Shown: positions 3,613 through 62,062 of the stretch, in pieces
How positions within the stretch are numbered: position 1 is the first letter of the stretch
Layout of the letters: the number at the start of each line of letters is the position of its first letter
Assembly (NCBI RefSeq): GCF_020037015.1
Contig: NZ_JAIQDE010000014.1
Span: 62,001-126,000, forward strand
DNA from: Corallococcus sp. AS-1-6
GTDB lineage: Bacteria; Myxococcota; Myxococcia; Myxococcales; Myxococcaceae
Direction: 5' to 3'
DNA length: 64,000 nucleotides
Program-made: the position numbers and the translations under genes
The notes under the pieces: generated by a model
Seen by the model: only the letters and a program-made list of their open reading frames with translations
Told to the model about the DNA's origin: nothing
Databases searched by the model: none

Positions 3613-4359
3613 ATGTACAACCTCCTCATCTCCCTGGCCGTCGGGCTGGCGGTCGGCGTGCTGGTGAAGTTCGCCGGCGGCTTCTCCTGGTGGGCCGGCA
3701 TCGTGCCCGGCGTCATCGTCTTCTTCGCCACCTACATCGTGCTCGCCCGCCGGGTCTCCACCCGGGTCCAGGCGCTGATGACGACGGTGCAGAAGGATCT
3801 CCAGGGCCAGCCCGCCACCCAGAAGGAGGCCCAGGGCCGCGTGGACCGGGCCGTCCAGACGCTGGAGCAGGGCCTGGTCTGGGACAAGTGGCAGTTCCTG
3901 ATCGGCCCGGAGCTCCACGCGCAGATCGGGATGCTGAAGTACATGGTGAAGGACCTGGACGGCGCGAAGCCCCACCTGGAGAAGGCCAGCGGCCGCAACT
4001 ACATGGCCAAGGCCATGGAGGGCGCCCTGCACTTCCGCCGCAACGACGTGCCCGCCATGAAGACCTCCTTCGAGGCCGCGGTGAAGAGCGGCAAGAAGGA
4101 GTCCATCGTCTGGGCCGTGTACGCGTGGTGCCTGCTGCAGCTCAAGGACAAGGACGCGGCCCAGCGCGTGCTCGCGCGCGGCGTGGAGCAGAACCCCTCC
4201 GACGAGAAGCTCAAGGGCAGCCTCGCCCAGTTGCAGAACGACAAGCGCCTGAAGATGAAGCCCTACGAGCCGCTCTGGTGGCAGTTCGGCCTGGAGGCGC
4301 CGCCGATGATGCCGCCCCAGGGTGGCGGGCGCCGCGTGCAGTTCACCCACCGGCGCTGA
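3613..4359 (+). CDS. Membrane-anchored TPR-like protein
   Basis: This 248-residue protein has two closely spaced hydrophobic helices at the N-terminus (about 4-22 and 26-45), then a soluble helical region (about 60-215) with TPR-like spacing of small and aromatic residues, for example ALHFRRNDVPAMKTSFEAAV and WAVYAWCLLQLKDKDAAQ. The C-terminus is rich in Pro, Gly and Met. The ATG is preceded by AAGGGG. It is probably an inner-membrane scaffold with the helical domain in the cytoplasm; its partner is unknown. It stands alone between tRNA-Leu (divergent) and a 540-base non-coding stretch. A similar arrangement of two N-terminal helices plus helical repeats occurs in the gene at 61139-61894, but I cannot say whether they are related. 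Confidence 0.75.
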   Translation: MYNLLISLAVGLAVGVLVKFAGGFSWWAGIVPGVIVFFATYIVLARRVSTRVQALMTTVQKDLQGQPATQKEAQGRVDRAVQTLEQGLVWDKWQFLIGPELHAQIGMLKYMVKDLDGAKPHLEKASGRNYMAKAMEGALHFRRNDVPAMKTSFEAAVKSGKKESIVWAVYAWCLLQLKDKDAAQRVLARGVEQNPSDEKLKGSLAQLQNDKRLKMKPYEPLWWQFGLEAPPMMPPQGGGRRVQFTHRR

Positions 4360-4903
4360 AGTCCCGGTGGAAGTGATGGCCCGGCGCCACTGCAATGGCG
4401 CCAGGGCCCGCTTCCGCCGCCTGCCGTGACCCCGTCGATGGCGCCGCCCCGCGCGGCCCGCCTCCGGGGGTTCCCGACGGATCCGCCGCTCCCTCCCACC
4501 CCGGGGCCCTGGCTCCCAGGGCGGCCCGCGTCCGGCAATTCCTACCGTGCGCTCGGGACCCACGCTGCAACGTCTTCCGGCTGGCTTGTTGGCTGTCTCG
4601 TGGGCCCCCATGCAACCCCCTGAAAAGAGGCCGTCGCGCGAGTGAGGCGCGGGGCACACGGCTTGCTCCCGGGCAAGGGCACGCGGGCGACCGGGGCGCA
4701 AGGTTCCCAAAGCCCCCGCGGAGGCGGACGGGCTTGGCAGCCGGAGGTCTCGGGTGAAGTTTGGATGGGTGGGTGGGTGCTTGCGGAACGAGGCGGCGGC
4801 GGGTGCGCGTGGGGCGCAAGGGCGTGGGGAGCACCTGGAAGGGCGTGGGGCCCGAGACTTTCGGCCTGCCATTTCGGGACAGGCGAGCGGAGCGAACCAG
4901 TTC
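4360..4903 (+). other. Non-coding stretch with GC-rich possible structured leader
   Basis: No convincing gene lies between the TPR-like gene and the diguanylate cyclase gene. The last 260 bases are G-rich, with short GGGT repeats near 4766-4780. The part from about 4650 to 4755 contains several complementary GC blocks and short elements (GGGCAAGGG, GGGCGCAAGG, GGCAGCCGG) loosely reminiscent of a GEMM/c-di-GMP-I aptamer. It does not match the consensus well. Treat it as an untranslated leader of unknown role. Confidence 0.4.
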
Positions 4904-5860
4904 ATGGAACGGCACGGCCGCAGCAGTGAGCGCGCGCTCCTGCTCATCATCGAGGACGACACCGGCGTGCGCGAAGGCCTGATGGACCTGCTCGCCCCGC
5001 GCTTCGACGTGCTGGCCGCCACGGACGCGGACGCGGGCGTGGAGCTGGCGCGCGAGCACCGCCCGGACCTGGTGCTCCTGGACCGGTTCCTGCCCTCCGG
5101 GGATGGGCTGGCGGTCCTGGAGACGCTCCAGGGCGACGTGCGCACGGAGACGGTGCCCGTCATCTTCCTCACAGGGGACGCGGACGAGGCGACCCTGGAG
5201 CGATGCCTGGAGATGGGCGCCGTGGACTTCATCCACAAGCCGGCGAGCTCGCGCGAGTTGCTCGCCCGCATCGACCGCGCGGTGCGCCAGAGCGAGCAGC
5301 AGCGCAAGCTCCAGGTGCTGGCGCAGACGGACGCGCTCACGGGCCTGGCGAACTTCCGGGCGCTGTCCGTGCGGCTGGAGGACGAGTTCAAGCGCGCCCA
5401 GCGCTACGGCTACGCGCTGAGCGTGGTGGTCATCGACCTGGACCACCTGAAGGCCATCAACGACGGCATGGGCCACGACGTGGGCAACCGCGCCATCCTG
5501 GCCCTGGCCACGCTGATGCAGGGCAACCTGCGCGAGTCCGACTTCGCGGCGCGCTTCGGCGGGGACGAGTTCGTCGTGCTGCTGCCGCACCAGACGTCGC
5601 TGGAGGCCGCGGTGTTCGCGGAGCGCCTGCGCTCGGAGCTGCGCGGCGTGAACGTGCAGCGCGGTGACGGGCGCCCGGCGCCCTTCGGGTTGAGCATCAG
5701 CGTGGGCGTGGCGGACCACACGGCCGACTCCCCGCGCGAGAGCACGGAGGCCTTGCTGAAGGCGGCGGACGCCGCGCTCTACGAGGCCAAGCGGGAGGGG
5801 CGCGACCGGGTGGTGGTGTACGGCCAGTCGATGCACTCGACCGCGGCACAGCGGCACTGA
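4904..5860 (+). CDS. Response regulator diguanylate cyclase (REC-GGDEF)
   Basis: This 318-residue protein makes cyclic di-GMP from two GTP. The N-terminal receiver domain (about 11-130) has E17-D18-D19, phospho-acceptor D60 (LVLLDRFLPSGDG) and K112. The GGDEF domain (about 140-305) has the intact signature FGGDEF (218-223). An inhibitory I-site RESD (210-213) sits five residues before it, so feedback inhibition by product is expected. The start at ATG 4904 gives a normal receiver; longer in-frame starts add a low-complexity tail that is probably not translated. The FAD/receiver fusion gene begins 26 bases downstream and is likely co-transcribed. No kinase is adjacent. The domain call is secure. 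Confidence 0.93.
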   Translation: MERHGRSSERALLLIIEDDTGVREGLMDLLAPRFDVLAATDADAGVELAREHRPDLVLLDRFLPSGDGLAVLETLQGDVRTETVPVIFLTGDADEATLERCLEMGAVDFIHKPASSRELLARIDRAVRQSEQQRKLQVLAQTDALTGLANFRALSVRLEDEFKRAQRYGYALSVVVIDLDHLKAINDGMGHDVGNRAILALATLMQGNLRESDFAARFGGDEFVVLLPHQTSLEAAVFAERLRSELRGVNVQRGDGRPAPFGLSISVGVADHTADSPRESTEALLKAADAALYEAKREGRDRVVVYGQSMHSTAAQRH

Positions 5861-5886
5861 CGGCGGGACGGGAACGAGGGCGCGCG

Positions 5887-7623
5887 ATGAGCGGGACCAG
5901 CAAGCTGGCGAGTGGTTCGAGGGTGGCGATCGTCGGCGGCGGCATCGCCGGGGCGGGGCTCGCGGCCTCGCTTCTCTTCAACGGCCGCGCGAGGGGCGTG
6001 GCCCTGGACGTGCGCGTCTACGCGGGGGGCACCGAGGAGCGCACCGCGCCCCCTGCCCTGCTCACGCCGGAGTGCCGGTCGCGGCTCGCCGCGCTGGGCT
6101 GCCGGATACCGCCGGAGTGGCGCGCGCACGAGCTGCGCGGCGTGGAGGTCATCTCCCAGGGCGAGCGCGAGCTGCTGCCCTGCGCGGCCGGCGGGCTCTG
6201 GGTCGTGGATGGCTGGCCCCGGGGTGAAGGCGGCCTGGACATGGTGCGCCACGTGCTGTCCACGGCGGCCAGCGCGCAGGGCGCCCGGTTCGTGAACCGC
6301 CACGTGGAGCGCGTGGAGCGGCAGGCGCCCGCCCCGGACGCGCCCGCGGCGGTGCGCAACGCGGGGCCCCTCGTCGTCCGCGCGCAGGGCAGCGGCGAGC
6401 GCTTCCACGCGGTGGCGCTGGCCGCGGGCGCGGGGCCGCTGCTGGGGGACGCCTTCTTCAAGGGCTTCAAGCCGGCGCCGTCCATGCCGGCGGTGCAGGC
6501 GCGCATCCAGGGCGGGATGCCGGGCCGCGACCTGGCGCCGGTGGCGCGGCTGTGGGTGGCGCCGCTGCCCTCCGTGGACGCGCTGTTCCTCATCCCGGGC
6601 GCGTCGTCCGTGTACGCGCTGGCGTTCGGCGCGGCGGTGACGCCCGCGGACCTGTGCCAGGTGCTGATGATGGCCGCGCGCGACGGCCTGCTGGACGAAG
6701 GCTTCGAGCTCACCGCGCTGGAGACGACGCGCCTGCCCTTCGGCCCCGGCCGCACGCTGGTGGCGCCCGGGCAGTTGGTGGTGGGCCCCGCGGCCTTCGG
6801 CCACCCGCTGCAGGTGGGCCTGTCGGAGACGCTGGCGTCGTGCAGCCGCGCCGCGGTGGCGCTGCTGGATGGCGGGCTGGACGCGCCGTCGCTGGAGCGC
6901 CGCTACGTGCGCGACGGGCTGGGCGAGCTGATGGAGGACGCGGCGGCGGGAGCGCGCTCCCTCACCTGGCTGCGCCGCGCGGGCAAGCGGGCCCCGGCGG
7001 CGTTCGTCGCGGCGCGCGCGAAGCACTCGGCGGGCGGCGTGTACGGCGGCGGCGTGCTGGGGTTGAGCTCCCCCACCCCGCTGGGCCTCCTGTCCGCGGC
7101 GCGCTGGTCGGGCGTGCGCGAGGTGGTGGGCTCGTGGCTGCGCACGCCCATCGAGCCCGTGCCCACGCTGGTGCCGGAGGTGGAGCCGGACCTCTACTAC
7201 GTGGTGGACGACGACGCGGACACGCGCGAGGCGCTCACGCTCCTGTTGGAGAGCACCGGCGCGCGCGTGGTGTCCTTCGCGGACGAGCTGGCGCTGTTCT
7301 GCGCGGTGGCGCGCCGTCCGCCCACCGCCATCCTGCTGGACGTGGTGCTGCACTGGGTGGACGGCCTGCGTCTGTGTGAAGGCCTCAAGCAGCACCCGCT
7401 CACCCGCGACACGCGCGTGCTGGTGATGAGCGGCCTCAACCGTCCGCACGTGCGGCAGCGCGCGCTCGACGCGGGCGCGGAGGCCTTCCTGCCCAAGCCG
7501 GTGAACCCGGATCGCCTCCTGTGCCAGCTCACCGGCCGCGTGCCGGACCCGCTCGGCGCGCCGCGCGACGTCATCCGGCCTCCAGTCACGGAAACATTTG
7601 GCGAAGACCGTTTTGCGTCCTGA
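5887..7623 (+). CDS. FAD-dependent oxidoreductase-like protein fused to a receiver domain
   Basis: In this 578-residue protein, residues about 13-300 look like a flavoprotein monooxygenase or halogenase/reductase-type fold, beginning with a Rossmann dinucleotide motif VAIVGGGIAGAGLAASLL. Residues about 436-560 form a full receiver domain: YYVVDDDAD, acceptor D485 (AILLDVVLHW), MSGLN and LPKPV. All residues needed for phosphorylation and Mg binding are present. A single polypeptide therefore seems to join a redox or flavin-binding module to a phosphorylation switch. ATG 5887 follows ACGAGGG. It lies 26 bases after the REC-GGDEF gene, suggesting one signalling operon. The substrate is unknown, and the flavin domain could be a sensor rather than an enzyme. 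Both domains are read directly from motifs. Confidence 0.85.
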   Translation: MSGTSKLASGSRVAIVGGGIAGAGLAASLLFNGRARGVALDVRVYAGGTEERTAPPALLTPECRSRLAALGCRIPPEWRAHELRGVEVISQGERELLPCAAGGLWVVDGWPRGEGGLDMVRHVLSTAASAQGARFVNRHVERVERQAPAPDAPAAVRNAGPLVVRAQGSGERFHAVALAAGAGPLLGDAFFKGFKPAPSMPAVQARIQGGMPGRDLAPVARLWVAPLPSVDALFLIPGASSVYALAFGAAVTPADLCQVLMMAARDGLLDEGFELTALETTRLPFGPGRTLVAPGQLVVGPAAFGHPLQVGLSETLASCSRAAVALLDGGLDAPSLERRYVRDGLGELMEDAAAGARSLTWLRRAGKRAPAAFVAARAKHSAGGVYGGGVLGLSSPTPLGLLSAARWSGVREVVGSWLRTPIEPVPTLVPEVEPDLYYVVDDDADTREALTLLLESTGARVVSFADELALFCAVARRPPTAILLDVVLHWVDGLRLCEGLKQHPLTRDTRVLVMSGLNRPHVRQRALDAGAEAFLPKPVNPDRLLCQLTGRVPDPLGAPRDVIRPPVTETFGEDRFAS

Positions 7624-7674
7624 AACCCACCTGCACGCAACCACGATCACATCGACGGGATAATCCCTACAAAA

Positions 7675-7697
7675 GCATGAAGCCTCGCACTTCATGC
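7675..7697 (+). other. Perfect hairpin in leader of the 7719 gene
   Basis: GCATGAAG (7675-7682) and CTTCATGC (7690-7697) form an 8-bp perfect stem with a 7-base loop. No T-tract follows, so it is not a standard terminator of the preceding gene. It ends 21 bases before the ATG at 7719. GGGATAATCCC (7657-7667), which contains a good -10-like GATAAT, lies just upstream but has no clear -35. A leader element or a protein-binding site are both possible. Confidence 0.35.
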
Positions 7698-7718
7698 TCC
7701 ACCAAAAGGGAGTCCCTC

Positions 7719-8600
7719 ATGTTCGCCTCGAAGCTGCCGCGTCTCACGCAGACGACGTCCCGGTTGTTCAAGCACGCGCCGGAGCTCAAGCGCACCTTCT
7801 CCACCCAGGTGCCGTCGCAAGAGGATCAGTTGCTCAAGGTCCGCGCGGAGAAGAACCGCGTCAAGCACCAGCAGCACGACCTCATGAGCGACATCATGAA
7901 CGCCGAGGACCGGCGTCACGGCGGCAACAACCAGCTCGCGCCGCGCATCCGTCCGGACGTGCCGCTCACGCGCCGGGACAACTTCCCCTTCAACGAAGTC
8001 CAGCCGAAGTACGAGACGCCGAAGTCGGCCATCGACCGCGACGGCAAGCTGCAGCCGGTGGACGCGAAGGACCGCACGGTGACGCTGACGGCGCACGTGG
8101 ACGGCGCGAAGGAGACGAAGGCCCACTCGCCCTTCACGTCCTTCAGCGGCGTGCCCGTGGGCGTGGATGGCAAGGCCGTGGAGCAGAAGCTCGTGGACAA
8201 CCCGGACTACGGCCAGAGCCGCATCGTCCACAACCCGGCGCTCGACGCGAAGGGCGGGGACGTCTTCGACCAGTTCGACATCCAGCGGGACATCCGCACG
8301 TCCACGCACCCGGGCCTGGACGAGACGGCCGTGAACCGCAGCCAGCCCGGCACGCCGGTGTGGCAGCCGGAGCCCCACGAGCGGCCCATCCTCGCGGACG
8401 TCGGCGTGGACCCGACCAAGCCCCACTTCACCTACCGCGAGCGCGCGATGATGAACTCCAAGCGCGATCAGGAGTACCTGGTGCGCGGCACCATCCACGA
8501 CTTCACGCTGGAGCGCCCGGACGCCAACGGCGACCTGAAGCACGTGCCGCGCGATCAGTTCGCCGACCAGTTCGACGACGCGCACAAGAAGACGAAGTAG
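7719..8600 (+). CDS. Conserved-looking soluble protein of unknown function
   Basis: A 293-residue hydrophilic protein without membrane segment. The first 25 residues (MFASKLPRL...) are basic and hydroxylated but not a classical signal peptide. The middle is rich in Asp, Lys, Pro and His, with short motifs such as FTSFSGVPVG and HFTYRERAMM. Composition suggests an extended or partly disordered protein. I recognise no family. The ATG at 7719 has AAAGGGAG as ribosome binding site; an in-frame ATG at 7677 lies inside a hairpin and is less likely. It is preceded by a 95-base gap and followed by a 13-bp inverted repeat, so it is probably a single-gene transcript. Confidence 0.75.
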   Translation: MFASKLPRLTQTTSRLFKHAPELKRTFSTQVPSQEDQLLKVRAEKNRVKHQQHDLMSDIMNAEDRRHGGNNQLAPRIRPDVPLTRRDNFPFNEVQPKYETPKSAIDRDGKLQPVDAKDRTVTLTAHVDGAKETKAHSPFTSFSGVPVGVDGKAVEQKLVDNPDYGQSRIVHNPALDAKGGDVFDQFDIQRDIRTSTHPGLDETAVNRSQPGTPVWQPEPHERPILADVGVDPTKPHFTYRERAMMNSKRDQEYLVRGTIHDFTLERPDANGDLKHVPRDQFADQFDDAHKKTK

Positions 8601-8651
8601 CCCGCGAACCGGTCCGGCGCCGAGCCCCCGCGCCGGACCCGCTCCGCCGGG

Positions 8652-8691
8652 ATTTCACCCACGGATATCCTTCAATCACCGTGGGTGAAAT
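8652..8691. terminator. 13-bp inverted repeat between convergent genes
   Basis: ATTTCACCCACGG (8652-8664) and its exact complement (8679-8691) flank a 14-base loop. It lies between the stop at 8600 and the convergent stop at 8709, the usual place for a shared terminator. No T-tract follows on either strand, so it may act as an mRNA 3' stem or a bidirectional pause rather than a classical intrinsic terminator. Confidence 0.5.
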
Positions 8692-8708
8692 GCGGTCAGT
8701 CCTGGCGC

Positions 8709-9302
8709 TCAGGCCTCCACGTGGTGCAGGCCCCGCCGCAGGAGGAGCGAGCCGGACATCATGGAGATGCCCCGGAAGAAGACGGCGAGCCCCACCAGCG
8801 TGCCCACCAGCCACACGGAGGACGCGGGCCACCGGGCCATCACGCCGAGGCCCAGGACCAGGGAGATGAGGCCGTAGGCCAGGTCCCAGCCCCACTGGAA
8901 GTAGCGGTCCATGACGGAGGTGATGACGTGGAAGAGGCCGCTGGCGAAGAAGTAGCCGGCGATCAGCAGCGTGAGGGACGCAAGCCCCGCGGCCGGGTAC
9001 ATGACGGTCAGGATGCCGACGACGGTCGTGAGGATGCCGCCGAGCATGAAGGACCAGAAGGCGCTGTGGCTCTCCTTGCGTGAGCGGATCCCCGCGGCGA
9101 TCTCCAGGACCCCGCCAATCACCAGCATCATCCCCACGAAGAAGACGGTGACCATGCTGGTGAAGAACGTGGCGCCCAGCAGCACCACCCCCGCGATTGC
9201 CGTCAGCAGGCCCAGGATGAAGGGAGCGCCCCACATGGCCGAGGCCCCCCTGGGAGGACGGTCCGGCCGGGTCTCCGGCGCACGTTCGACGTTCGTTCGC
9301 AT
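8709..9302 (-). CDS. HdeD-family six-helix membrane protein
   Basis: This 197-residue protein has a polar N-terminus (about 25 residues) followed by six hydrophobic segments arranged in three pairs, for example WGAPFILGLLTAIAGVVLLGA and TVFFVGMMLVIGGVLEIAAG. This is the pattern of the HdeD/DUF308 family. Family members are inner-membrane proteins linked to acid stress in E. coli; the molecular role is not established. Start ATG 9302 is preceded by GTGGAGATC; the in-frame extension upstream is arginine- and proline-rich and unlikely to be translated. It is separated from miaA by about 180 bases and is probably independently transcribed. Confidence 0.85.
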   Translation of the reverse strand: MRTNVERAPETRPDRPPRGASAMWGAPFILGLLTAIAGVVLLGATFFTSMVTVFFVGMMLVIGGVLEIAAGIRSRKESHSAFWSFMLGGILTTVVGILTVMYPAAGLASLTLLIAGYFFASGLFHVITSVMDRYFQWGWDLAYGLISLVLGLGVMARWPASSVWLVGTLVGLAVFFRGISMMSGSLLLRRGLHHVEA

Positions 9303-9483
9303 GGCGATCTCCACGGTGATGGCTGCCCGCCTCGGGCCCTCGGCCGCCTGCCGGTCCGGGAGTGGACGGGGTGGGGGTAGCGCTTCCTCGTGGAAGATGG
9401 GCGCGCGACCGGGCGCGAACAATCGCCTCCCACCCACGAAATGAGGCGGGACGGCGAGCAGGGGCCAGGGTGGCCCACCGCGC

Positions 9484-10380
9484 CTAGAGGGCAGGACGGG
9501 TGTACGGCGGCGACAGGAACACCGCGCCGGGCTCCTTGCGGAACCAGGTGAGCTGCCGCTTGGCGTAGCGCCGCGTCTCCCGCGCGGTGTCGGCGATGGC
9601 TTCTGCTTGTGTCATCCGGCCCTCCACCACGGCGCGGGCCTGCACGTAGCCGACGCTGCGCATGGGTGCCGCGTCCGCGTAGCCCTGCTCCAGCAGGGCG
9701 CGGGTCTCCTCCACGAGTCCCCGCGAGAAGAGCGCCTCCGTGCGCGTGTTGATGGCGGCGTAGAGGGACTCGCGCGGCGGGTCCAGCACGTAGAGCTGGA
9801 AGGGGTGGCGGTCCGGCGCGAAGGCGTGGGCGCGGCGGAACTCGGACGCGGGCACGCCCGTCTGCGCGTGGATCTCCAGGGCGCGGACGACGCGCACCAG
9901 GTCCTGGGGAGGCAGCTTCGCCGCGGTCTCCGGATCCACCTCGGCCAGCCGGCGGTGCACGGCCTCCCTCCCCTGCTCCGCCGCGAGCGCCTCCAGCTCC
10001 GCGCGCAGCGAAGGCAGGGCGCCGGGCGCGTCCACCACGCCGTGCAGCAGGATGCGCAGGTACAGGCCGGTGCCGCCGACGACGAACACCGGCCGGCCCC
10101 GCGAGGCGATGTCCGCGATGGCCACGTCCGCGAGGCGCTGGTACCCGGCGGCGGAGAAGGGCTCGAGCGGATCCACGCAGGAGACCAGGTGGTGCGGCAC
10201 GGCGGCCTGCTCCTCGGCGGAGGGCTTCGCGGTGCCGATGTCGAAGGCGCGGTACACCTGCTGCGAGTCCGCGCTGACAATCTCCCCGCCCACGGCGCGC
10301 GCCCACTCGATGGCCAGCGCCGTCTTCCCCGACGCCGTGGGCCCAGCGATCACCGTCAACGGCACCCGCGTCTCAGCCAC
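9484..10380 (-). CDS. miaA: tRNA dimethylallyltransferase
   Basis: This 298-residue enzyme transfers a dimethylallyl group from DMAPP to N6 of A37 in tRNAs reading codons that start with U. The P-loop GPTASGKT (13-20), the DSQQVYR motif (about 38-44), the GGTGLYLR motif (about 101-108) and the tRNA-binding region ending in RRYAKRQLTWFR are all typical, and the length is normal. It acts in the cytoplasm and is constitutive in most bacteria. It lies 57 bases after the HprK-like kinase gene on the same strand, so it may be read through from the peptide operon. Its conserved housekeeping role suggests the adjacency is incidental. Confidence 0.97.
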   Translation of the reverse strand: MAETRVPLTVIAGPTASGKTALAIEWARAVGGEIVSADSQQVYRAFDIGTAKPSAEEQAAVPHHLVSCVDPLEPFSAAGYQRLADVAIADIASRGRPVFVVGGTGLYLRILLHGVVDAPGALPSLRAELEALAAEQGREAVHRRLAEVDPETAAKLPPQDLVRVVRALEIHAQTGVPASEFRRAHAFAPDRHPFQLYVLDPPRESLYAAINTRTEALFSRGLVEETRALLEQGYADAAPMRSVGYVQARAVVEGRMTQAEAIADTARETRRYAKRQLTWFRKEPGAVFLSPPYTRPAL

Positions 10381-10437
10381 CAGCGTCCGCCTCCCGCACC
10401 CGCTGTAGCGCAGCCGCGAGGCAAGCGCGAGCCCCCG

Positions 10438-11274
10438 CTACGCCAGCCGCGCCCGCACGACCTCCGCCGCGCTGGCATCCCGCGCGAACATGAGCCGGGC
10501 GGTCTCCACGGACGACAGCACGCGTCCGGCCGCGCCCACCAGCGCTCCCCGGCCCGAGGGCGTGGGCTCGGGCAAGAGCGCGTTGAGCAGCAGCACGCGA
10601 GCCACCTCCCCTGCCCCCTGCGCCTCCCACCGCGACCCCGCGTCCCAGCCCAGCGTGCCCACCGCGACGAGCGCCGCCTCGGCGGTCCGGGCCGGCACGT
10701 TCCAGGGCGTCCCCGCGGCCCGCCAACCGCCATCCTCCACGGGCCACACAGCGACCAGCTCGTCCGCGAGCACCGCCCCACCCGCCTCGCGCCACAGCCC
10801 GCCCAGGGTGCTCTTGCCCGCGCCGGAGTGCCCCACGAACAGCGCGGCCCGGCCTCCATGCACCAGCCCCACGCCGTGGAGGAGCAGCCCGCCGCGCTTC
10901 GCCAGCGCGGACGCGAGCATCACCTTGATCACGTTCTCCACCGGGTAGCGCCCGGACCCGACCACGTCCGCGTGGCACCGGTCCTCGGAGAGCACCGCCG
11001 AATACCCGGCGCCCTCCACGCGCAGCGTCCCCGCGTCACCGGGCACGAGCCGGGGCAGCTCCTGCACAGTGGGCGGAGCACGGGGACTGGGAGGGTTCCG
11101 CATCACCAGCCGGGCATCGGGAGCCACGGCCTCCGCAGCGAGGAACGCGCCGAACACGTGCCGGAGTGGACCGGCGAGCGCGTCATCCTCCACCTCGAGC
11201 GCCACCGTCCACCCGGCCAGGGTGATCCGGAGCGCGCCGTCACGGGGACCCGGCGCGGGGTCCCCGCCGTTCAC
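10438..11274 (-). CDS. HprK-related kinase of a PqqD/peptide operon
   Basis: This 278-residue protein has a Walker A motif GHSGAGKST (148-156) preceded by LLLHGVGLVHGGRAALFVG, the layout of HPr-kinase-like proteins (the HprK-related kinase families found with PqqD-like proteins). A partner Asp/Glu pair appears in LADELVAVW. It lacks the N-terminal domain of true HPr kinase. The start GTG at 11274 overlaps the stop of the 54-residue peptide gene in a GTGA tetranucleotide, so translation is probably coupled. Its substrate is not known; modification of the small peptide or a carrier is an inference from context. A longer start at GTG 11283 is possible. Family call good, function open. Confidence 0.8.
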   Translation of the reverse strand: MNGGDPAPGPRDGALRITLAGWTVALEVEDDALAGPLRHVFGAFLAAEAVAPDARLVMRNPPSPRAPPTVQELPRLVPGDAGTLRVEGAGYSAVLSEDRCHADVVGSGRYPVENVIKVMLASALAKRGGLLLHGVGLVHGGRAALFVGHSGAGKSTLGGLWREAGGAVLADELVAVWPVEDGGWRAAGTPWNVPARTAEAALVAVGTLGWDAGSRWEAQGAGEVARVLLLNALLPEPTPSGRGALVGAAGRVLSSVETARLMFARDASAAEVVRARLA

Positions 11275-11435
11275 GGCATGCACTCCGATTCGCCGGGGAT
11301 GGTGCACATGGACAACTGCGCCAGCGCGACGAAGGGCTGCTCCCACAGGATGGCGGGAGGCACGTACACGGCGGGCGCCGCCGGCGGCTTCGGCACGGAG
11401 GGACCCGCTGGAGGCTGTGAAGGTCGTTGGCTCAC
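11271..11435 (-). CDS. Candidate ribosomal precursor peptide (54 residues)
   Basis: This is a short open frame missed by length-based calling. GTG 11435 follows AGGTGGG by about eight bases, and the TGA stop overlaps the kinase start (GTGA). The peptide has a Pro-rich N-terminal half (residues 5-27, with repeated PP), an aromatic/hydrophobic centre (YVPPAILWEQPFVALAQ, about 24-40) and a short C-terminus with Cys44 and Cys52 and two Pro. It has no signal peptide. The leader-plus-core layout next to a PqqD-like protein, a protease-like protein and a kinase fits a RiPP-type precursor. That function is inference; the frame, ribosome binding site and coupling are directly visible. Confidence 0.65.
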   Translation of the reverse strand: MSQRPSQPPAGPSVPKPPAAPAVYVPPAILWEQPFVALAQLSMCTIPGESECMP

Positions 11436-11447
11436 GTGATGGCCCAC

Positions 11448-14400
11448 CTAGAAGGGCACCGGGAAGGCACAGATACGACCATCCCCGGTACCGACATGCA
11501 ACCGGCTCACGGTGTGATCGATGGTCGGAGTGCCGATGGTCTGCGCCGGGGCCACGGTCACCTGCCCGGAGTCCGTCCCCGTCTCCAGCTCCAGTTGGTG
11601 CACCTTGCCGTCCGAGCCGCCGACGTAGATGCGCGCCACCCCGTTCTGGTTGAGGGTGAAGGAGCCGGCCGGGCCCTCGATGGGCGTGGACCACAGCATC
11701 ACCGGCACGTTGGTCGCGTCCATCTCATAGCGCTCCACCCTGCCGTCCGCCGTGCTCACCACGAAGCCCCGGCCCAGGGGCCGCGCGAAGTGGGTGAACG
11801 CCCGCGCCGTGGTGGGCCGCACGGCGACCGTCCAGGCCGTCGCGAACGTGGCCGGGTTCACGCCGTACACCCGGCCATCATTGGCGGTGACCAGGATCTG
11901 GTTGCTCGTGGCGTTGCGGACCACGCCGAACTCCAGGTCCCCCAGCGACAGCCGCGCCACCTCCGCGCCCGTGAGGCTGTTGAGCACGCGCAGCGTGGCC
12001 GTGCTCGTGCCCGAGCGGGTCGGCACGTAGAGCCGGTTCGTCGTGTAGTCCACCAGCATGCCGCCGCTCACCATGCCCAGGTCCCCGGGCCGGTAGCGCC
12101 AGATGAGCGCGCCCGTGGCCGCGTTCAGCGCGACCACCTGGTTCTGCGCGGACGTGTTGCGCGTGGCGAAGATGGCCAGGTCCACGTTCGAGTACGTCGT
12201 CCGGTACTCCGGGTTCGCGTAGTCGAGCAACTGCGTCACCGGGAACGAGCTGATGTTCCCCAGGCCCAGCGTGGTGTTCCTCCACAGGAACTCACCCGTG
12301 GCGGTGTTGATGACCGCCGGCACGCCGCTCTGGTCGCCAACGACGATCCACTGCTGCCCGGGCCGGCCCAGCAGCGGCACCACCGGGAAGCGGCTGGCGA
12401 TCTTGCCCGCCATCTTCACCGGCCGGAAGCGCTCCGCGCCGTCCTCGGACGGGTTCGTGGTGTTCGTGAGCGTGGCCACCACCGAGTCGTTGAAGGAGCT
12501 GAAGATGCCCACGCCCAGCTCCGTCACGGGCTGCAGCGTCGTGTCCAACCCCACCGAGTAGCACCACAGCGGGTTGCCCGCCACGCGCGCCCGGGGGGTG
12601 GCCAGCAGGCCCACCGAGGTGGGCTGGTTGCCCGGCCCGTACCGCAGCTCATCGTCCGCGTTGAACACGCGGTAGACGTACGTCGTGCCGTTGGTGACGC
12701 CCGTGTCCGTCATGGACGACGCGGAGCTGAACTCGTCCACGTACGCCACCGTCGCGTTGCCCAGCACGTCACCCACCGCGTAGCGCGTGCCGCTGGTCGG
12801 CGCGGTGTTGGGCGTCGCCCCTTCGGCGCGCAGCACCAGGGTGCCGCCGTGGTTGAACGGGTTGTCCCAGGTGAGCGTCACGCTGCCGTCGCGGGCCACG
12901 CCCGTGAGGCGCCCCACGTCCGGGGAGGCGGTGACCGCGAGCAACGTCATCGTCGCCTCCACGCGGATGCGCGGATCGTTCCAGCCCTGGTTCAGCTCCA
13001 GGCGGTGGCGGAACGCCGTGTCCGCGGGGACGGCGGTGAAGCCCGAATAGGTGATGCGGAAGGTGGCCTCGCCGCCCACAGGGATGCCGGTGTCCGACGC
13101 CCAGATGTAGCCGCCCGCCTCCGTGAAGACGCTCCAGTCCCCGAACGCCTGCGGCCCCGACGCGGCCACCGCGAAGTAGTTCACCGCGGGCTTGAACAGC
13201 TTCACCTCGTAGATGGGCAGCGTGCCCCGGTTCTGCACCGTGTACGCCACCGTCACGCCCGTGGCCGCCGTGGACATCGTCTCCTGGCTCAGCCGCACGC
13301 GGTGCTCCACGATGCGGCCCTTGCGCGCGGTGACGGCATCCCCCGCCACCGCCGAGCCGTTGAGCGTCCCGTCCACCTGCGCCTGGAACTGGTAGCGGGC
13401 GCCGGGTGTGCCGGACACCTGGTAGCGCCAGGTGAACTGCGCGGAGGCGCCCGGAGCCAACTGCGCCACGCTCTCCGGCGACGGGCCGGACACGAGTGAC
13501 GCCGCCGCGGTGCCCAGCAGCACCGGCACGCGCGGCCGCACCTGGGTGTACGTGTTCGTGGTGGAGGTGTTGAGCACCGTCAGGCGCAGCGTCACCTGAT
13601 CACCGGGGAACGCGTCCACCAGGTCCATGTCCGCCGCGGCGACCAGGGCGCCCACGTCCGCCATGGGCGAGTCCACCAGCGGCGCGTTCGCGCCGGTCGC
13701 GCGAGCCCGGACGCGCGCGGCCACGGCACCGGCGGCGGTGGGCCGCAGGGTGACCGCGATGACGCCCGCGGCCTGCACCGCCACGGGCACGTTGCCGGTG
13801 GGGAGCTTGCTCACGGTGGTGAGCGGCACGCTGGTCGTGGAGGCGGGGTTGTCCACGACCACCGAGGACGAGCCCGTGCCCCGGTTCTCCACCACCACGC
13901 GCGCCACGGTCGTGCCGTTGACCGCCAGCATGCGCGGCGACAGCGTCACGTTCGCCGCCAGGATGCCGCGATTCCACGGCGTCATGGTGCCGACGTTGTA
14001 CGAGTAGGTCGTGCCGTCACACTGGTCGCGGGCATACGTCCCCGTGACGAGGCGCTCGGTGGAGCTGTCGTTGGAACGGTTCGACGGCCCCACCACGCTC
14101 AGCACGAAGCGCGCGGACTCATTGCGCGCCAGGCCACGTCCCTCGTCCACGCAGCCCCACGTGGACTGGAAGGTGATGCGCCGCTCGTTGGAGTCGAGGT
14201 ACTCGACCTTCCAGTGCGGGTTCTCCTCCGCCGGCAGGCCGCCCAGGAGCTGGTAGCCCGCGGGCAGCACGAAGGACACCTCCGACAGGCGGGCGTCGGT
14301 CGTGGCCTGGGTCGTGTTCGTCACCTCCAGGACCAGGTCGGACGCATCCTCCATCACCACGCGGGCGACGGTCTCCCCGGCGGAGGGGACGGGGCGCACG

Positions 14401-14474
14401 GTCCAGGTCCGGTTCTGGGAGAAGCCCACCGCGGGCAGCAGCACGGCGACGAGCGCGAGGATGCGGACGTTCAT
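11448..14474 (-). CDS. Large exported protein with beta-sandwich repeats and PQQ-like propeller
   Basis: This 1008-residue protein begins with a Sec signal peptide (MNVRILALVAVLLPAVGFSQ). Residues about 20-480 are beta-rich repeats resembling CARDB/DUF11-type surface domains (VVVENRGTGSSSVVVDNP, LTVLNTSTTNTYTQ). An Ig/FN3-like part follows (about 515-620), then a C-terminal beta-propeller with blade motifs such as INTATGEFLWRN and LNAATGALIWRYRPG. It is expected in the periplasm or at the outer surface. ATG 14474 has GAGG six bases upstream; it begins 13 bases after the lipoprotein stop. The precursor-peptide gene follows 12 bases later. Its place in the middle of the operon suggests it binds or displays the exported product, but this is not shown. 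Confidence 0.8.
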   Translation of the reverse strand: MNVRILALVAVLLPAVGFSQNRTWTVRPVPSAGETVARVVMEDASDLVLEVTNTTQATTDARLSEVSFVLPAGYQLLGGLPAEENPHWKVEYLDSNERRITFQSTWGCVDEGRGLARNESARFVLSVVGPSNRSNDSSTERLVTGTYARDQCDGTTYSYNVGTMTPWNRGILAANVTLSPRMLAVNGTTVARVVVENRGTGSSSVVVDNPASTTSVPLTTVSKLPTGNVPVAVQAAGVIAVTLRPTAAGAVAARVRARATGANAPLVDSPMADVGALVAAADMDLVDAFPGDQVTLRLTVLNTSTTNTYTQVRPRVPVLLGTAAASLVSGPSPESVAQLAPGASAQFTWRYQVSGTPGARYQFQAQVDGTLNGSAVAGDAVTARKGRIVEHRVRLSQETMSTAATGVTVAYTVQNRGTLPIYEVKLFKPAVNYFAVAASGPQAFGDWSVFTEAGGYIWASDTGIPVGGEATFRITYSGFTAVPADTAFRHRLELNQGWNDPRIRVEATMTLLAVTASPDVGRLTGVARDGSVTLTWDNPFNHGGTLVLRAEGATPNTAPTSGTRYAVGDVLGNATVAYVDEFSSASSMTDTGVTNGTTYVYRVFNADDELRYGPGNQPTSVGLLATPRARVAGNPLWCYSVGLDTTLQPVTELGVGIFSSFNDSVVATLTNTTNPSEDGAERFRPVKMAGKIASRFPVVPLLGRPGQQWIVVGDQSGVPAVINTATGEFLWRNTTLGLGNISSFPVTQLLDYANPEYRTTYSNVDLAIFATRNTSAQNQVVALNAATGALIWRYRPGDLGMVSGGMLVDYTTNRLYVPTRSGTSTATLRVLNSLTGAEVARLSLGDLEFGVVRNATSNQILVTANDGRVYGVNPATFATAWTVAVRPTTARAFTHFARPLGRGFVVSTADGRVERYEMDATNVPVMLWSTPIEGPAGSFTLNQNGVARIYVGGSDGKVHQLELETGTDSGQVTVAPAQTIGTPTIDHTVSRLHVGTGDGRICAFPVPF

Positions 14475-14487
14475 GGCGGGCCTCACG

Positions 14488-15066
14488 TCACGGCTCCAGG
14501 GTGAAGGACGTGGAGGCCAACTGCACCCCGTCCAGGAAGAAGCGCACCTGCCAGGTGCCCGTCATGCGCGACATGGACACCGGCGTGCCCGCCACCGGCA
14601 GCGAATAGCGCAGCGTTCGCGTCTCCTCCGGCGGTGCCTCCACCGTCGCGCTCCGCTTCTCGTACGGACGCCCGCCCGGCGCGATGAACTCCACGTCCAC
14701 CACGCCCTTGTTCCGCACGCCGCTCACCACGAAGTCCACGTCCACCTGCTGCACCTCGGACAGCGGCGTGGGCTCCGCGCCCGCGCCCACCACCTCGGCG
14801 CTCCCGGTCGGGGGCGGCAGCGCCACCGGCGGCGGCACCTCCTCCCCGCCCTCGTCCGGAGGCGGCTGCTCACCGGACGGAGCCGGAGGCGGCGGCCGGG
14901 CCACGCTCCCGCCACCGGCCAGCACGTCGGCCGGATCCACGGGAGTGACGGAGCCGCCGCCCTGCCCCGGCTTCATGGCAGCCGGCGGCGGCAGGGGGGA
15001 CACCCCTTCCGAGCACGCCGACAGCACCATCGCACCCGCCAGCACGGTCACGAGCGCACGCATCAT
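14488..15066 (-). CDS. Lipoprotein with Pro-rich linker and beta domain
   Basis: This 192-residue protein has a lipobox ending at Cys18 (AGAMVLSAC), then a Pro/Gly/Glu linker (about 20-95) and a C-terminal beta domain (about 100-192) containing VDVDFVVSGVRNKG and TGTWQVRFFLDG. The latter resembles part of the beta domains of the neighbouring large exported protein. ATG 15066 overlaps the PqqD stop as ATGA; a second ATG at 15063 is also possible. GGAGGAG precedes both. It probably sits in the outer or inner membrane as a companion of the 1008-residue protein, whose gene starts 13 bases downstream. No enzymatic motif is visible. Confidence 0.8.
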   Translation of the reverse strand: MMRALVTVLAGAMVLSACSEGVSPLPPPAAMKPGQGGGSVTPVDPADVLAGGGSVARPPPPAPSGEQPPPDEGGEEVPPPVALPPPTGSAEVVGAGAEPTPLSEVQQVDVDFVVSGVRNKGVVDVEFIAPGGRPYEKRSATVEAPPEETRTLRYSLPVAGTPVSMSRMTGTWQVRFFLDGVQLASTSFTLEP

Positions 15067-15377
15067 GTCTCCTCCAGGGGCGCGGCACCGGCCGGCGCGC
15101 GCACTTCGTCCAACAGACCTCGCCGCTGAAGCTCCTCCAGGAAGCGCAGCGTGTCGGTCAGCACCGGACCGACGTCGGTCGAAAACTCGGAAGCCACCTG
15201 CTCCGCCACCGCCCGGGCCGTGCGCTGTCCGTCGCACAGCGCCCAGATGCGCGCCGCCGTCGGGTTGAGCCCGCGCAGCGTGCGCCCCTCCGCGTCCAGC
15301 ACCAGGAAGTCCGCGCCAAAGCCCTCCCCCGAGGTCCCCGCACGCCGCCGGGGAACGCTGCCTTCCTGGAAGCTCAT
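15063..15377 (-). CDS. PqqD-family peptide-binding (RRE-like) protein
   Basis: This 104-residue protein matches the PqqD fold: a beta-hairpin segment FLVLDAEGRTLRGLNPTAAR, then helices IWALCDGQRTARAVAEQV and DTLRFLEELQRRGLL. PqqD-like proteins bind leader peptides and present them to modifying enzymes; a free-standing copy is usual in peptide-modification clusters and in HprK-related kinase clusters. ATG 15377 overlaps the preceding gene's stop (ATGA), and its own stop overlaps the lipoprotein start (ATGA). The likely client is the 54-residue peptide encoded in the same operon. Fold assignment is confident; the client is inferred. Confidence 0.82.
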   Translation of the reverse strand: MSFQEGSVPRRRAGTSGEGFGADFLVLDAEGRTLRGLNPTAARIWALCDGQRTARAVAEQVASEFSTDVGPVLTDTLRFLEELQRRGLLDEVRAPAGAAPLEET

Positions 15378-15784
15378 GCACGGCCCGTCCTTCCCAGCCA
15401 CGCGGCCACCTGGCGCTTCAGCGTCGCGCGCCAGCGGCCCAGGCGACGGGGCCCCACGTCCCAGCGGTCCATCTCCAGCAACGCGCCGCCCCGGCGCACA
15501 CGCCGCGCACGCCCGAGGATACGGACGAGCGGCAGCGGCGGATCTTCCACCCCGCCATTGTCCCCGCGAAGCGCGCAGACGCTGCCGTCGCACCAGCGCA
15601 CCCGGTGCAACACCAGCGAGGACTCGAAGCGCGCCAGCACCACCTCACCCGGGCGCGGCGCCTCCACCAGCGGCTCCACCTCCGCCACGTCCCCCGCACG
15701 CAACGACGGCCACATGCTGTCCCCGGCGACAGGGATCCAACGGAGGCCATCGATCATGGAGACGGGCTGGGGAGCGCTCGACAT
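15374..15784 (-). CDS. S24/S26-type serine peptidase-like protein
   Basis: This protein of about 136 residues has a signature IPVAGDSMWPSLRAGD. Ser23 is the expected nucleophile of signal-peptidase-I/LexA-type folds. A later segment LVLHRVRWCDG (His60) and GDNGGVED match the second conserved block, in which archaeal/eukaryotic-like members use His instead of Lys. No transmembrane anchor is obvious, so it may be cytosolic. It is the first gene of the coupled operon and could remove a leader peptide. The start is uncertain: ATG 15784 is chosen, with ATG 15757 and upstream TTG codons also in frame. Family call is motif-based; catalytic activity is not proven. Confidence 0.75.
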   Translation of the reverse strand: MSSAPQPVSMIDGLRWIPVAGDSMWPSLRAGDVAEVEPLVEAPRPGEVVLARFESSLVLHRVRWCDGSVCALRGDNGGVEDPPLPLVRILGRARRVRRGGALLEMDRWDVGPRRLGRWRATLKRQVAAWLGRTGRA

Positions 15785-15955: not shown

Positions 15956-17248
15956 TCAGGCCGTGGGGGCTGGAGCCGGGGCGTCCGGCTGCGCGCGCAC
16001 GGTGGCGGCGACGCTGTCGAGCGCCACGGGCACGGGCTCACCGCCCGCCATGGGCTTGAGCTTCGCCTGGCCGGTGGTGCGCTCCTGCTCGCCCAGCACC
16101 AGCGTGAAGCGGGCGCCGGACTTGTCCGCGCGCTTCATCTGGCTCTTGAGGCTGCCGCCGCGCGTGTCGAAGTCCACCTTGAGGCCCTCGCGGCGCAGGC
16201 GGCTGGCGAGCTTGAGGCCCTCGTCCTGCGAGCCCTCGTCCGCCACGGCGATGAACAGGTCCGGCCGCTGGGTGAACGTCTTGCCGCTCTCCTTCAGGAG
16301 CAGCACCAGCCGGTCCAGGCCCATGGCGTAGCCCACCGCGGGCACGTCCGGCCCGCCCAGGCCCTTCATCATCTTGTCGTAGCGCCCGCCGCCGCCCACC
16401 GTGCTGGCGGTGCCCAGCGCGGGGTGCGAGGCGATGAACTCGAAGACGGTGCGCGTGTAGTAGTCCAGGCCGCGCACCAGCCGGTGGTTCACCACGTACT
16501 TGATGCCCAGCACGCCCAGCTTGCGCTGCAGGTCCGTGAAGTGCGCGCGGCACGGCTCGCACAGGAACTCCAGCACGTTGGGCCCGGCCGCGGCCACCGC
16601 CTGGCACTTCTCGTTCTTGCAGTCCAGGACGCGCAGCGGGTTGCGCTCCAGCCGCTGCTGGCAGTCCGCGCACAGCTCTTCCCGGTGCGCCTTCAGGTAC
16701 TCCACCAGCTTCGCGTGGTACGCGGGCCGGCAGTTGTCGTCGCCCAGCGAGTTGATGTTCAGGGTGACGTCCGTGAGGCCCAGGGCCTCCAGGAACTGCA
16801 CCACCACGTCCATCAGCTCCGCGTCCTGCGCGGGCTCCTTCGCGCCGTAGGCCTCCGCGCCAATCTGGGAGAACTGACGGTAGCGGCCCGTCTTCATCCG
16901 CTCGTAGCGGAACATGGGCCCCATGTAGAACCAGCGCGACACCGGCTCCTGGTTGTTCACCGAGTGCTCGATGTACGCGCGCGCCGCGGGCGCGGTGCCC
17001 TCCGGACGCAGGGACAGGCTGCGGCCGCCCTTGTCCTCGAAGGTGTACATCTCCTTGCCGACGATGTCCGTCTCCTCGCCCACGCTGCGCACGAAGAGGG
17101 CCGTGTCCTCCACCATGGGCGTGCGCACCTCGCCGTAGCCGAAGCGGCCGAACAGCGTGCGCGCGGTGGACTCCACGAACTGCCACACTTCAATCTCGCC
17201 CGGCAGAAGGTCGTTCATCCCCTTCACGCCGTTGATCTTCTGGCTCAC
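15956..17248 (-). CDS. hisS: Histidyl-tRNA synthetase
   Basis: This 430-residue class II aminoacyl-tRNA synthetase charges tRNA-His. Motif 2 (SLRPEGTAPAARAYIEHS, FRYERMKTGRYRQF), the histidine-specific motif LVRGLDYYTRTVFEF and the GGGGRYD loop are all present, with a C-terminal anticodon-binding domain (about 330-420). A Cys-rich insertion (CADCQQR, CKNEKC, CEPC; about 190-235) is characteristic of one HisRS subgroup and may bind zinc. Start GTG 17248 overlaps the psd stop as GTGA, so the two genes are translationally coupled. A short Ala/Pro tail ends the protein. Assignment is secure. Confidence 0.97.
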   Translation of the reverse strand: MSQKINGVKGMNDLLPGEIEVWQFVESTARTLFGRFGYGEVRTPMVEDTALFVRSVGEETDIVGKEMYTFEDKGGRSLSLRPEGTAPAARAYIEHSVNNQEPVSRWFYMGPMFRYERMKTGRYRQFSQIGAEAYGAKEPAQDAELMDVVVQFLEALGLTDVTLNINSLGDDNCRPAYHAKLVEYLKAHREELCADCQQRLERNPLRVLDCKNEKCQAVAAAGPNVLEFLCEPCRAHFTDLQRKLGVLGIKYVVNHRLVRGLDYYTRTVFEFIASHPALGTASTVGGGGRYDKMMKGLGGPDVPAVGYAMGLDRLVLLLKESGKTFTQRPDLFIAVADEGSQDEGLKLASRLRREGLKVDFDTRGGSLKSQMKRADKSGARFTLVLGEQERTTGQAKLKPMAGGEPVPVALDSVAATVRAQPDAPAPAPTA

Positions 17249-22842: not shown

Positions 22843-23616
22843 CTAGTTCTTGCCGAACCACGTCTGGAGGAAGACCTGGACGGCCGGGTGCTGGGACTCC
22901 CGCAGCTTCTCCGGCGGGCCGTACTCCACGATGACGCCCTTGGACAGGAAGGCGATCTGGTTGGCCACGTTGAAGGCGGACGCGATGTCGTGGCTGATGA
23001 CCACGCTGGTGACGCCCAGCTCCTTCTGCGCGGTGAGGATCATGTCATCCACGGAGTCCGTGGTGATGGGGTCCAGGCCGGTGGTGGGCTCGTCGTAGAG
23101 AACGACCTTGGGGTCCAGCACCACGGCGCGCGCCAAGCCCACTCGCTTGCGCATGCCGCCGGACAAGTCCGCGGGGAAGCGGCCCTCCACCTCTCGCTTG
23201 AGCCCCATGAGGTCCAGGCGCTTCCTCACCTGCTCGCGGATCTCGTCCTCGGACAGCTTCGTGTGCTGGCGCAGCGGGAAGGCGACGTTCTCGAACACCG
23301 TCATGGAGTCGAAGAGCGCGGCGGCCTGGAACACCATGCCGAAGCTGCGGCGCACCTGCTGCAGCGCCTCCACGCTCATGGGGACGATGTCCTGCCCGTC
23401 GATGATGACCTTGCCGCTGTCCGGCTTGAGCAGGCCGATCATGTGCTTCATCAGCACCGTCTTGCCGGAGCCGGAGCCGCCCAGGATGACGCAGGTGCTG
23501 CCCGCGGGCACGGTGAGGTTGATGCCGGTGAGGACCTTGTTGCCCGCGAACGTCTTGTGCAGGTCCACGATGTCGATCATGGCCCGCTCGGAGCCGGGCG
23601 CCGTCGCTGAGCTCAT
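22843..23616 (-). CDS. Mla-type ABC transporter ATP-binding protein
   Basis: This 257-residue ATPase has Walker A GGSGSGKT, Q-loop VFQAAALF, signature LSGGM, Walker B VVLYDEPTT and an H-loop SHD. The sequence GPPEKLRES and the MRKRVGLARA segment match MlaF/Ttg2A-type proteins. It energises MCE-dependent lipid transport at the inner membrane. ATG 23616 overlaps the permease stop by one base (TGATG), so the two are coupled. With the permease and the MCE protein it forms a core MlaFED-like unit; no MlaB or MlaC gene is seen nearby. Confidence 0.94.
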   Translation of the reverse strand: MSSATAPGSERAMIDIVDLHKTFAGNKVLTGINLTVPAGSTCVILGGSGSGKTVLMKHMIGLLKPDSGKVIIDGQDIVPMSVEALQQVRRSFGMVFQAAALFDSMTVFENVAFPLRQHTKLSEDEIREQVRKRLDLMGLKREVEGRFPADLSGGMRKRVGLARAVVLDPKVVLYDEPTTGLDPITTDSVDDMILTAQKELGVTSVVISHDIASAFNVANQIAFLSKGVIVEYGPPEKLRESQHPAVQVFLQTWFGKN

Positions 23617-61966: not shown

Positions 61967-62062
61967 GACGTCGTGCGTGCGCGACCGCCAAGGTGGGGCG
62001 CGGACAGAGGCGCCCGACGGGGCCTCGTTGCATCAAAACTTGTCCGACCGTCGGACCAGTTT
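61967..62062. repeat. Diverged copy of a ~96-bp intergenic repeat
   Basis: This block matches 62105-62200 over its full length with few gaps (shared CGTGCGTGC, CCAAGGTGGGGCGCGGA, AGAGGCGCCCG and AAAAC-TGTCCGAC blocks). It ends in an imperfect palindrome (62035-62062). It sits between divergent genes, where a terminator is not expected. Confidence 0.8.

Follow-up and report, generated by a model that had tools for sequence, protein, structure and literature searches.

The window analysed here, a stretch of 64,000 nucleotides from the 9.5 Mb genome of Corallococcus sp. AS-1-6 (NZ_JAIQDE010000014.1, positions 62,001 to 126,000), carries between hisS (15956-17248) and miaA (9484-10380) an operon of six minus-strand genes. 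We consider this operon to be probably a Myxococcota version of a pathway for ribosomally synthesized and post-translationally modified peptides (RiPPs) of the linear polyphosphorylated peptide (LPP) type, with a core peptide that would act at the cell envelope together with exported partners. The first gene encodes an S26/S24-type peptidase (15374-15784; 136 amino acids, aa), an LppS-like protein of the archaeal-type signal peptidase I kind and the predicted leader peptidase. It is followed by a PqqD-like protein (15063-15377; 104 aa; Pfam PqqD) taken as a discrete RiPP recognition element (RRE), by a lipoprotein with a Pro-rich linker (14488-15066; 192 aa; lipobox LSAC read from the translation) and by an exported protein (11448-14474; 1008 aa from an ATG, signal peptide judged by eye). 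The last two are a 54-aa precursor peptide starting at a GTG (11271-11435) and an HprK-like peptide kinase (10438-11274; 278 aa). In the precursor, the leader motif Y24-A39 (YVPPAILWEQPFVALA; 11319-11366, minus strand) holds the putative RRE-binding sequence YxxPxI and ends at the cleavage site predicted after A39; the predicted core Q40-P54 (QLSMCTIPGESECMP; 11274-11318, minus strand) contains Ser42, the predicted phosphosite at Y+18, as well as Cys44 and Cys52. An alternative GTG at 11447 would yield 58 aa; the start at 11435 is backed by relatives with an ATG at the same place.

The short 54-aa frame is a genuine gene. When 42 distinct sequences of its conserved 31-codon part are compared pair by pair, the ratio of nonsynonymous to synonymous differences (pN/pS) is 0.30 in the peptide frame versus 1.67 and 2.44 in the shifted frames of the same strand, and 6767 of the 11689 differences fall on third codon positions. 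By part, pN/pS is 0.116 in the leader motif and 0.475 in the tail or core, a tight leader joined to a looser core being the pattern of a RiPP precursor. Peptides of the kind found here (type A) share the consensus YxPPAILWEQPFVALA/QxSxC..IPGESEC, where the slash marks the predicted cut; VALA/Q at Y+15 is what we take to be an AxA-type signal-peptidase site. The pattern used to gather the 34 peptides required Y, P at +3, I/L/V at +5, W at +7 and F/L at +11, so that invariance at these positions is no evidence, and left +12 onward unconstrained; the set comprises 33 peptides collected in this way plus that of genome G050, which starts with W. (G, C and L numbers are our handles for genomes, contigs and loci.) Of the 34 type A peptides, 33 carry Ser or Thr at Y+18 (2000 shuffles gave a mean of 3.6 and a maximum of 12), and all 34 have exactly two Cys behind the leader; the Ser at this position had been tallied before the LPP paper came to light. 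When all types are pooled, Ser or Thr lies within +18 to +20 in 55/55 hand-collected peptides (shuffled mean 17.3, maximum 29 in 2000); the other 21 of these were hand-picked, to the exclusion of repeats, of the L177 peptide and of the L141 and L158 frames, whose calls lack the Tyr part, and no peptide was recognised in L142-L145, L150, L151 and L155. The Ser of the GESEC loop (+26; 24/34) was also considered as a phosphosite and was dropped in favour of the better kept +18. No Ser or Thr stands between the two Cys in 5/35 peptides, one of the five having a single Cys.

The whole unit is conserved as well. Searched with the kinase, 82 of 96 genomes of the family gave a match at E<=1e-3 and 52, the host genome included, a strong one (E<=1e-28); loci were read in 36 of these 52, the window not counted. 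At 33 of the 36, in other Myxococcaceae (L033-L064, L135), the complete set of six is found, with gene order and strand unchanged. Across L033-L064, hisS adjoins the operon in 31/32 and miaA in 29/32, and the 4-nt overlap of the peptidase and PqqD genes and the lipoprotein are both found in 32/32. A peptide profile, built from 16 peptides of these loci, matched every one of the 52 strong-kinase genomes at E<=1e-13, once in each; among the other 44 genomes it reached that level in 2 and E<=0.1 in 4. Likewise, at E<=1e-20 the exported protein turns up in 52/52 strong-kinase genomes and in 6 of the remaining 44; in genus g3, peptide and exported protein occur together in three genomes and neither occurs in three others. 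These genome counts are not independent, because the species are related and the profiles derive from some of the genomes searched. Named records retrieved with the peptide (24, their strains partly overlapping the other set) include Corallococcus, Myxococcus, Pyxidicoccus and Citreicoccus; 20 show all six genes, and the six are complete on the M. xanthus AM003 contig (L114). S26 is missing from four records, two of which are contigs shorter than 5 kb. The initial annotation, whose coordinates, overlaps and coupled starts for the six minus-strand genes proved correct on rereading, had joined the encoded peptide, its PqqD-like partner, the protease, the HprK-like kinase and the exported partners into one unit, and had named conservation of the gene order and of the short frame in relatives as the test of that proposal. 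Both are conserved (33/36 loci; frame-specific purifying selection), and the unit stands, the display that the annotation ascribed to the exported partners being a putative part of it. Two records deserve mention in their own right. A contig labelled Comamonas sp. KCTC 72670 (L122) carries a whole Myxococcus-like hisS-to-miaA locus and is probably mislabelled or contaminated; in L033 (about 4551-7575; genome G028, same genus, single contig) the exported-protein gene lies in three frames, through either sequencing error or decay.

Among the putative enzymes, the kinase has catalytic and P-loop residues that do not vary: H133, S150, G151, G153, K154, S155, T156, D171 and E172 are invariant in 22/22 aligned rows, with spacings (H-K 21, K-D 17) equal to those of BsfK, the kinase of a phosphorylated lasso peptide. 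A PDB search with its profile yields HPr kinase/phosphorylase (2.3e-4), and its predicted model (pLDDT, the predicted local distance difference test, 91) matches the fold of phosphoenolpyruvate carboxykinase (TM about 0.5) and, more weakly, that of HprK/P. The PqqD-like protein scores above the Pfam PqqD cut-off (5.7e-15, 55.8 bits); a second PqqD-family gene of the same genome, encoding 92 aa, is unlinked to the operon (L002 1444-1722, G000:C8). The peptidase lies above the cut-off of Pfam Peptidase_S24 (2.3e-8), its motifs GDSMWPSLR, HR and GDN with a following Asp recur in 32/32 syntenic loci, and S23, H60 and D75/D81 are conserved in the alignment; no N-terminal membrane segment is evident by eye. 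In G165-G167, kinase, radical S-adenosylmethionine (SAM) enzyme and S26 peptidase stand in tandem (3/3), which places kinase and peptidase in one pathway. The kinase matches of G165 and G166 are listed with one internal TGA, and the L171 match stops at the gene's own stop codon. At L151 (1068-1490) an S26 homolog directly follows an HprK-like kinase and has an apparent Cys at the position of the catalytic Ser.

As to the exported partners, the predicted model of the 1008-aa protein (pLDDT 87.6) suggests several immunoglobulin (Ig)-like beta domains and a BamB-like propeller at the C-terminus. Pfam PQQ_2 is above its cut-off, and the fold search returned BamB structures with TM-scores (target) mostly of 0.66-0.77; the ten best E-values belonged to Ig-like chains, mostly of ciliary proteins, with TM-scores near 0.1, and the sequence found nothing in the PDB at E<=0.1. 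No family was assigned to the lipoprotein by the Pfam and NCBIfam scans. An anti-phage defence role was discarded, none of the six proteins having a PADLOC match at E<=0.01. The profile of the exported protein reaches E<=1e-20 in 62 of 195 genomes of the phylum, and at seven of eleven further loci (L160-L165 and L170, out of L160-L170) a short [YW]xxPx[ILV] frame with a Cys tail directly adjoins the exported protein or its lipoprotein. A control search through all six frames of the 11 loci, 130,482 bases in total, for reading frames of 30-110 aa that combine [YW]xxPx[ILV] with at least 2 Cys returned exactly those seven. Three of them (L163-L165) come from draft genomes of other families, with GC contents from 35 to 64%: the peptide adjoins the exported protein and the lipoprotein, the tandem of kinase, radical SAM enzyme and S26 peptidase is on another contig (3/3), and PqqD is on yet another. 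Thus, peptide and exported proteins make up one stable unit and the enzymes another. From this association we infer that the mature peptide may bind or load the exported protein, which would serve as its receptor or carrier. Beside the exported gene in L160-L162 and L170 the peptides are Cys-rich variants (WxAPx[VI]..LLC[ST].G...C....CC....C...C.GG), three with a convergent S26 neighbour; at L163 (13308-14987; G165) a radical SAM-like gene of 530 aa, distinct from the one beside the kinase of that genome, lies about 3 kb from the exported gene.

Related versions occur as well. Type B, seen in many Myxococcaceae, unites a PqqD and an HprK-like kinase with a peptide of the form YxPPxVRSEKxLVPDLF..S..C..C, with an exported protein of some 1900 aa that shows Ig-like and FG-GAP repeats at L070, the single case tested, and with an S26 domain. 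At L071 and L072, the only two tested, this domain forms a fusion with a GNAT acetyltransferase. All five are present at 14 of 25 loci around weaker kinase matches (L069-L072, L140, L147-L149, L152, L156-L159, L180), with L069-L072 also defining the type B profiles, and types A and B coexist in G002, G006, G014, G015 and G079. Type R (L130, L131) combines PqqD, peptide, exported protein, lipoprotein, kinase and a radical SAM/SPASM enzyme, with an NTP_transf_5 gene alongside that resembles LppN, the NTP-transferase of LPP clusters. A radical SAM enzyme adjoins the kinase in L130, L131, L171, L173 and L175, and the SPASM domain was detected in the four tested against Pfam. In an unrooted tree of 38 kinases, from whose grouping two long unlabelled rows were left out, one branch sets type A apart, another type B and a third the five radical SAM-associated kinases (supports 89/92, 96/93 and 93/91, respectively). 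The second cluster of genome G128 (L177, C1:5389000-5402000, at 4336-12683) assembles an HprK-like kinase, an NTP_transf_5 protein, a fusion of Transglut_core3 (B2) with PqqD, a radical SAM enzyme, a YEPPRIV peptide and a 1140-aa upstream gene; no cyclase is among its three Pfam-tested genes. In the Corallococcus genome itself, two LppN-like NTP_transf_5 genes lie side by side, unlinked to the operon (G000:C82:242894-244750).

LPPs are known from the lpp cluster of Paenibacillus alginolyticus (Popov et al. 2026, PMC13381572). Their consensus is YxxPxVLxHQxIxFET/xxS, cut after Y+15 (T-1) and with a phosphoserine at Y+18 (S3); the Y/WxxP leader motif binds the RRE, which helps the archaeal-type signal peptidase LppS (Ser29, His68, Asp93) to cut after T-1, and the HprK-like LppK phosphorylates the precursor (PMC13381572). 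In Bradymonas, BsfK phosphorylates Ser3 near the leader junction, and a PqqD-like RRE speeds the reaction (PMC10368454). Because these kinases, of the same kind as ours, phosphorylate their precursors, the HprK-like kinase is the expected modifying enzyme of the operon, and the "new or absent" chemistry of the initial annotation gives way to a likely phosphorylation. The myxobacterial peptide follows the LPP consensus in an ungapped register at Y0, P3, V/I5, L6, Q9 and S18; the T-1 cleavage point corresponds to Ala at +15 and the phosphorylated S3 to Ser at +18. By homology, the PqqD-like RRE would grip the 54-aa precursor at its YxxPxI motif, the HprK-like kinase would phosphorylate Ser42 (Y+18, core residue 3), perhaps several times, and the archaeal-type signal peptidase would cut after Ala39 (VALA/Q). 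The 15-residue core thus freed, with its Cys pair, may then act at the cell envelope with the exported Ig/propeller protein and the lipoprotein. In Bsf, phosphorylation survived the exchange of the YxxPxL residues for Ala (PMC10368454), so a motif of this type may be more important to cleavage than to the kinase. The sequences themselves show the order and conservation of the genes, the selection on the peptide, the catalytic residues, the register of the motif and the joint occurrence with the exported protein; binding, phosphorylation and cleavage are predicted from homology.

Several observations weigh against it. The LPP residues H8, F13 and E14 do not occur in the myxobacterial peptide, and T15 is mostly Ala. 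Two genes linked in LPP clusters, for the NTP-transferase LppN and for the MsbA-like exporter LppD, are absent from the operon; unlinked NTP-transferase copies lie on contigs C82 and C2 of the genome, and the ABC ATPase encoded at 22843-24042 of the window, some 7 kb from the operon, has an MlaD protein close by. Where known kinases have their second catalytic Asp, 22/22 rows have Glu, and the NCBIfam matches of the peptidase, to sigpep_I_arch (2e-4, the best family) and sod_Ni_protease (5e-4), both remain below cut-off. Since the phosphoserine of BsfA is at Y+19, homology does not fix the exact phosphosite. The full gene order is absent at 3/36 strong-kinase loci, namely the distant L066 and L068, where S26 was not found, and G050, in which S26, PqqD and peptide share one contig and the kinase is on another. 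No credible peptide of the [YW]xxPx[ILV] kind is seen near the exported protein at L166-L169, from two genomes with peptides elsewhere. Finally, the peptide and exported-protein profiles were made partly from the genomes searched, and strong kinase matches belong mostly to two genera.

How, then, do other explanations account for the same genes? The peptide might stay inside the cell as a regulator or cofactor, for example of the kinase, with the exported protein merely co-transcribed: tight gene coupling alone would hold the genes together, no exporter is linked, and the precursor has no signal peptide as judged by eye. Yet in L163-L165 the exported protein, lipoprotein and peptide remain adjacent even though kinase and PqqD are on other contigs, and a second, unlike exported protein (about 1900 aa, with FG-GAP repeats in the one tested) accompanies the type B peptide, so that we regard an intracellular role as unlikely. 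The operon could instead be a degenerate lasso-peptide cluster, in which a cyclase encoded elsewhere cyclises the precursor and the kinase only tailors it, as in Bsf. Leader motif, RRE and HprK-like kinase are indeed common to phosphorylated lasso peptides, and Glu residues would lie 8 and 10 residues into the core if it began at Ser42. However, neither a B2 protease nor an asparagine-synthase-like cyclase is among the adjacent and 10 flanking genes scanned (a genome-wide search for an asparagine-synthase cyclase was not made), the Transglut_core3 (B2) match of the genome is weak (27.8 bits for a cut-off of 26) and on a different contig, and a separate S26 peptidase occupies the place of B2; this makes a lasso origin very unlikely.

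A third explanation, that of a radical SAM-type RiPP whose maturase sits at another locus, the kinase being accessory, draws on the enzymes found beside the kinase in L130, L131, L171, L173 and L175 and on the conserved Cys pair, a possible thioether target. The initial annotation had reported no radical SAM enzyme nearby, which is right for the adjacent and 10 flanking genes and does not extend to these five related loci. A search of six type A genomes (G000, G002, G014, G053, G062, G067) with the L130 enzyme, however, gave nothing beyond partial matches at 28-35% identity, and none in G062; the best reach 2.8e-7 in the Corallococcus genome and 6.6e-11 in G002, and in the tree the radical SAM kinases group apart from those of type A. 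A radical SAM enzyme acting from elsewhere in the Corallococcus genome was accordingly dropped as a candidate, the matches being partial and of low identity, and we give this explanation very little credence.

If the operon is of the LPP type, the conserved exported partner offers a first lead on what LPP-type peptides are for, and it suggests a task at the cell envelope. Corallococcus and Myxococcus are among the bacteria whose genomes combine the three LPP core enzymes in an operon and have one peptide match each, so that gene deletions in a tractable model organism could test what this kind of RiPP does. Among the relatives, the module comes with a radical SAM enzyme or with a different giant exported protein. 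One may speculate further, with considerable doubt, that across Myxococcota phosphorylated and, in some lineages, radical SAM-modified Cys-tailed peptides are the dedicated ligands or cargo of large exported propeller proteins. This would amount to a cell-surface system in which a peptide kinase of the cytoplasm, together with an RRE and an enzyme resembling signal peptidases, charges a propeller outside the cell. Type A, with its Ig/BamB-like propeller, and type B, with its protein of about 1900 aa and FG-GAP repeats, would then be two versions of one machine.

Among known systems, HPr-rel-A (TIGR04352/TIGR04353) and SynChlorMet (TIGR04248/TIGR04249) show the same pairing of PqqD-like and HprK-like proteins with weak profile matches. 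Membership in HPr-rel-A was rejected, given scores of 19.8 versus 200 bits for the kinase (TIGR04352) and 20.9 versus 35 for the PqqD (TIGR04353), and so was membership in the SynChlorMet cassette, with scores far under the cut-offs. The initial annotation had looked for relatives among such "functionally undefined" PqqD and HprK systems, as in the HPr-rel-A models; LPPs are the closer match. Phosphorylated lasso peptides (paeninodin and Bsf) share with the operon an RRE-assisted HprK-like kinase and a YxxPxL leader, as described in PMC10368454 and PMC9266682, but possess a B2 protease and a macrolactam cyclase where the myxobacterial operon has a serine peptidase. Inclusion with the lasso clusters was thus set aside, B2 and cyclase being absent from the adjacent and 10 flanking genes and the B2-type domain weak and unlinked.

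With LPP clusters, on the other hand, the operon has in common a discrete RRE, an HprK-like kinase, an archaeal-type signal peptidase with Ser, His and Asp, and the lack of a cyclase. In PMC13381572, LPPs and paeninodins are described as "restricted to the Bacillota" and LPP clusters as patchy among Bacilli, often gained and lost; a word search for "myxo" in its main text found no occurrence. Nor did we find a description of this myxobacterial system in the literature searched, outside which most subscription journals fall. RRE, kinase, peptidase and motif are present in the operon and a cyclase is not, as in LPP clusters; linked NTP-transferase and linked exporter are the two features lacking, and on their account we class it as a variant and not as a plain LPP member. 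Unlike LPPs, it has a predicted 15-residue core with a Cys pair, a conserved exported Ig/propeller protein with a lipoprotein, and a mostly fixed site between hisS and miaA, in another phylum. Overall, we hold with good confidence that the operon works like an LPP system, to which it adds a new phylum, an exported Ig/BamB-like propeller protein and a lipoprotein that track the peptide across that phylum, and relatives equipped with a radical SAM enzyme.

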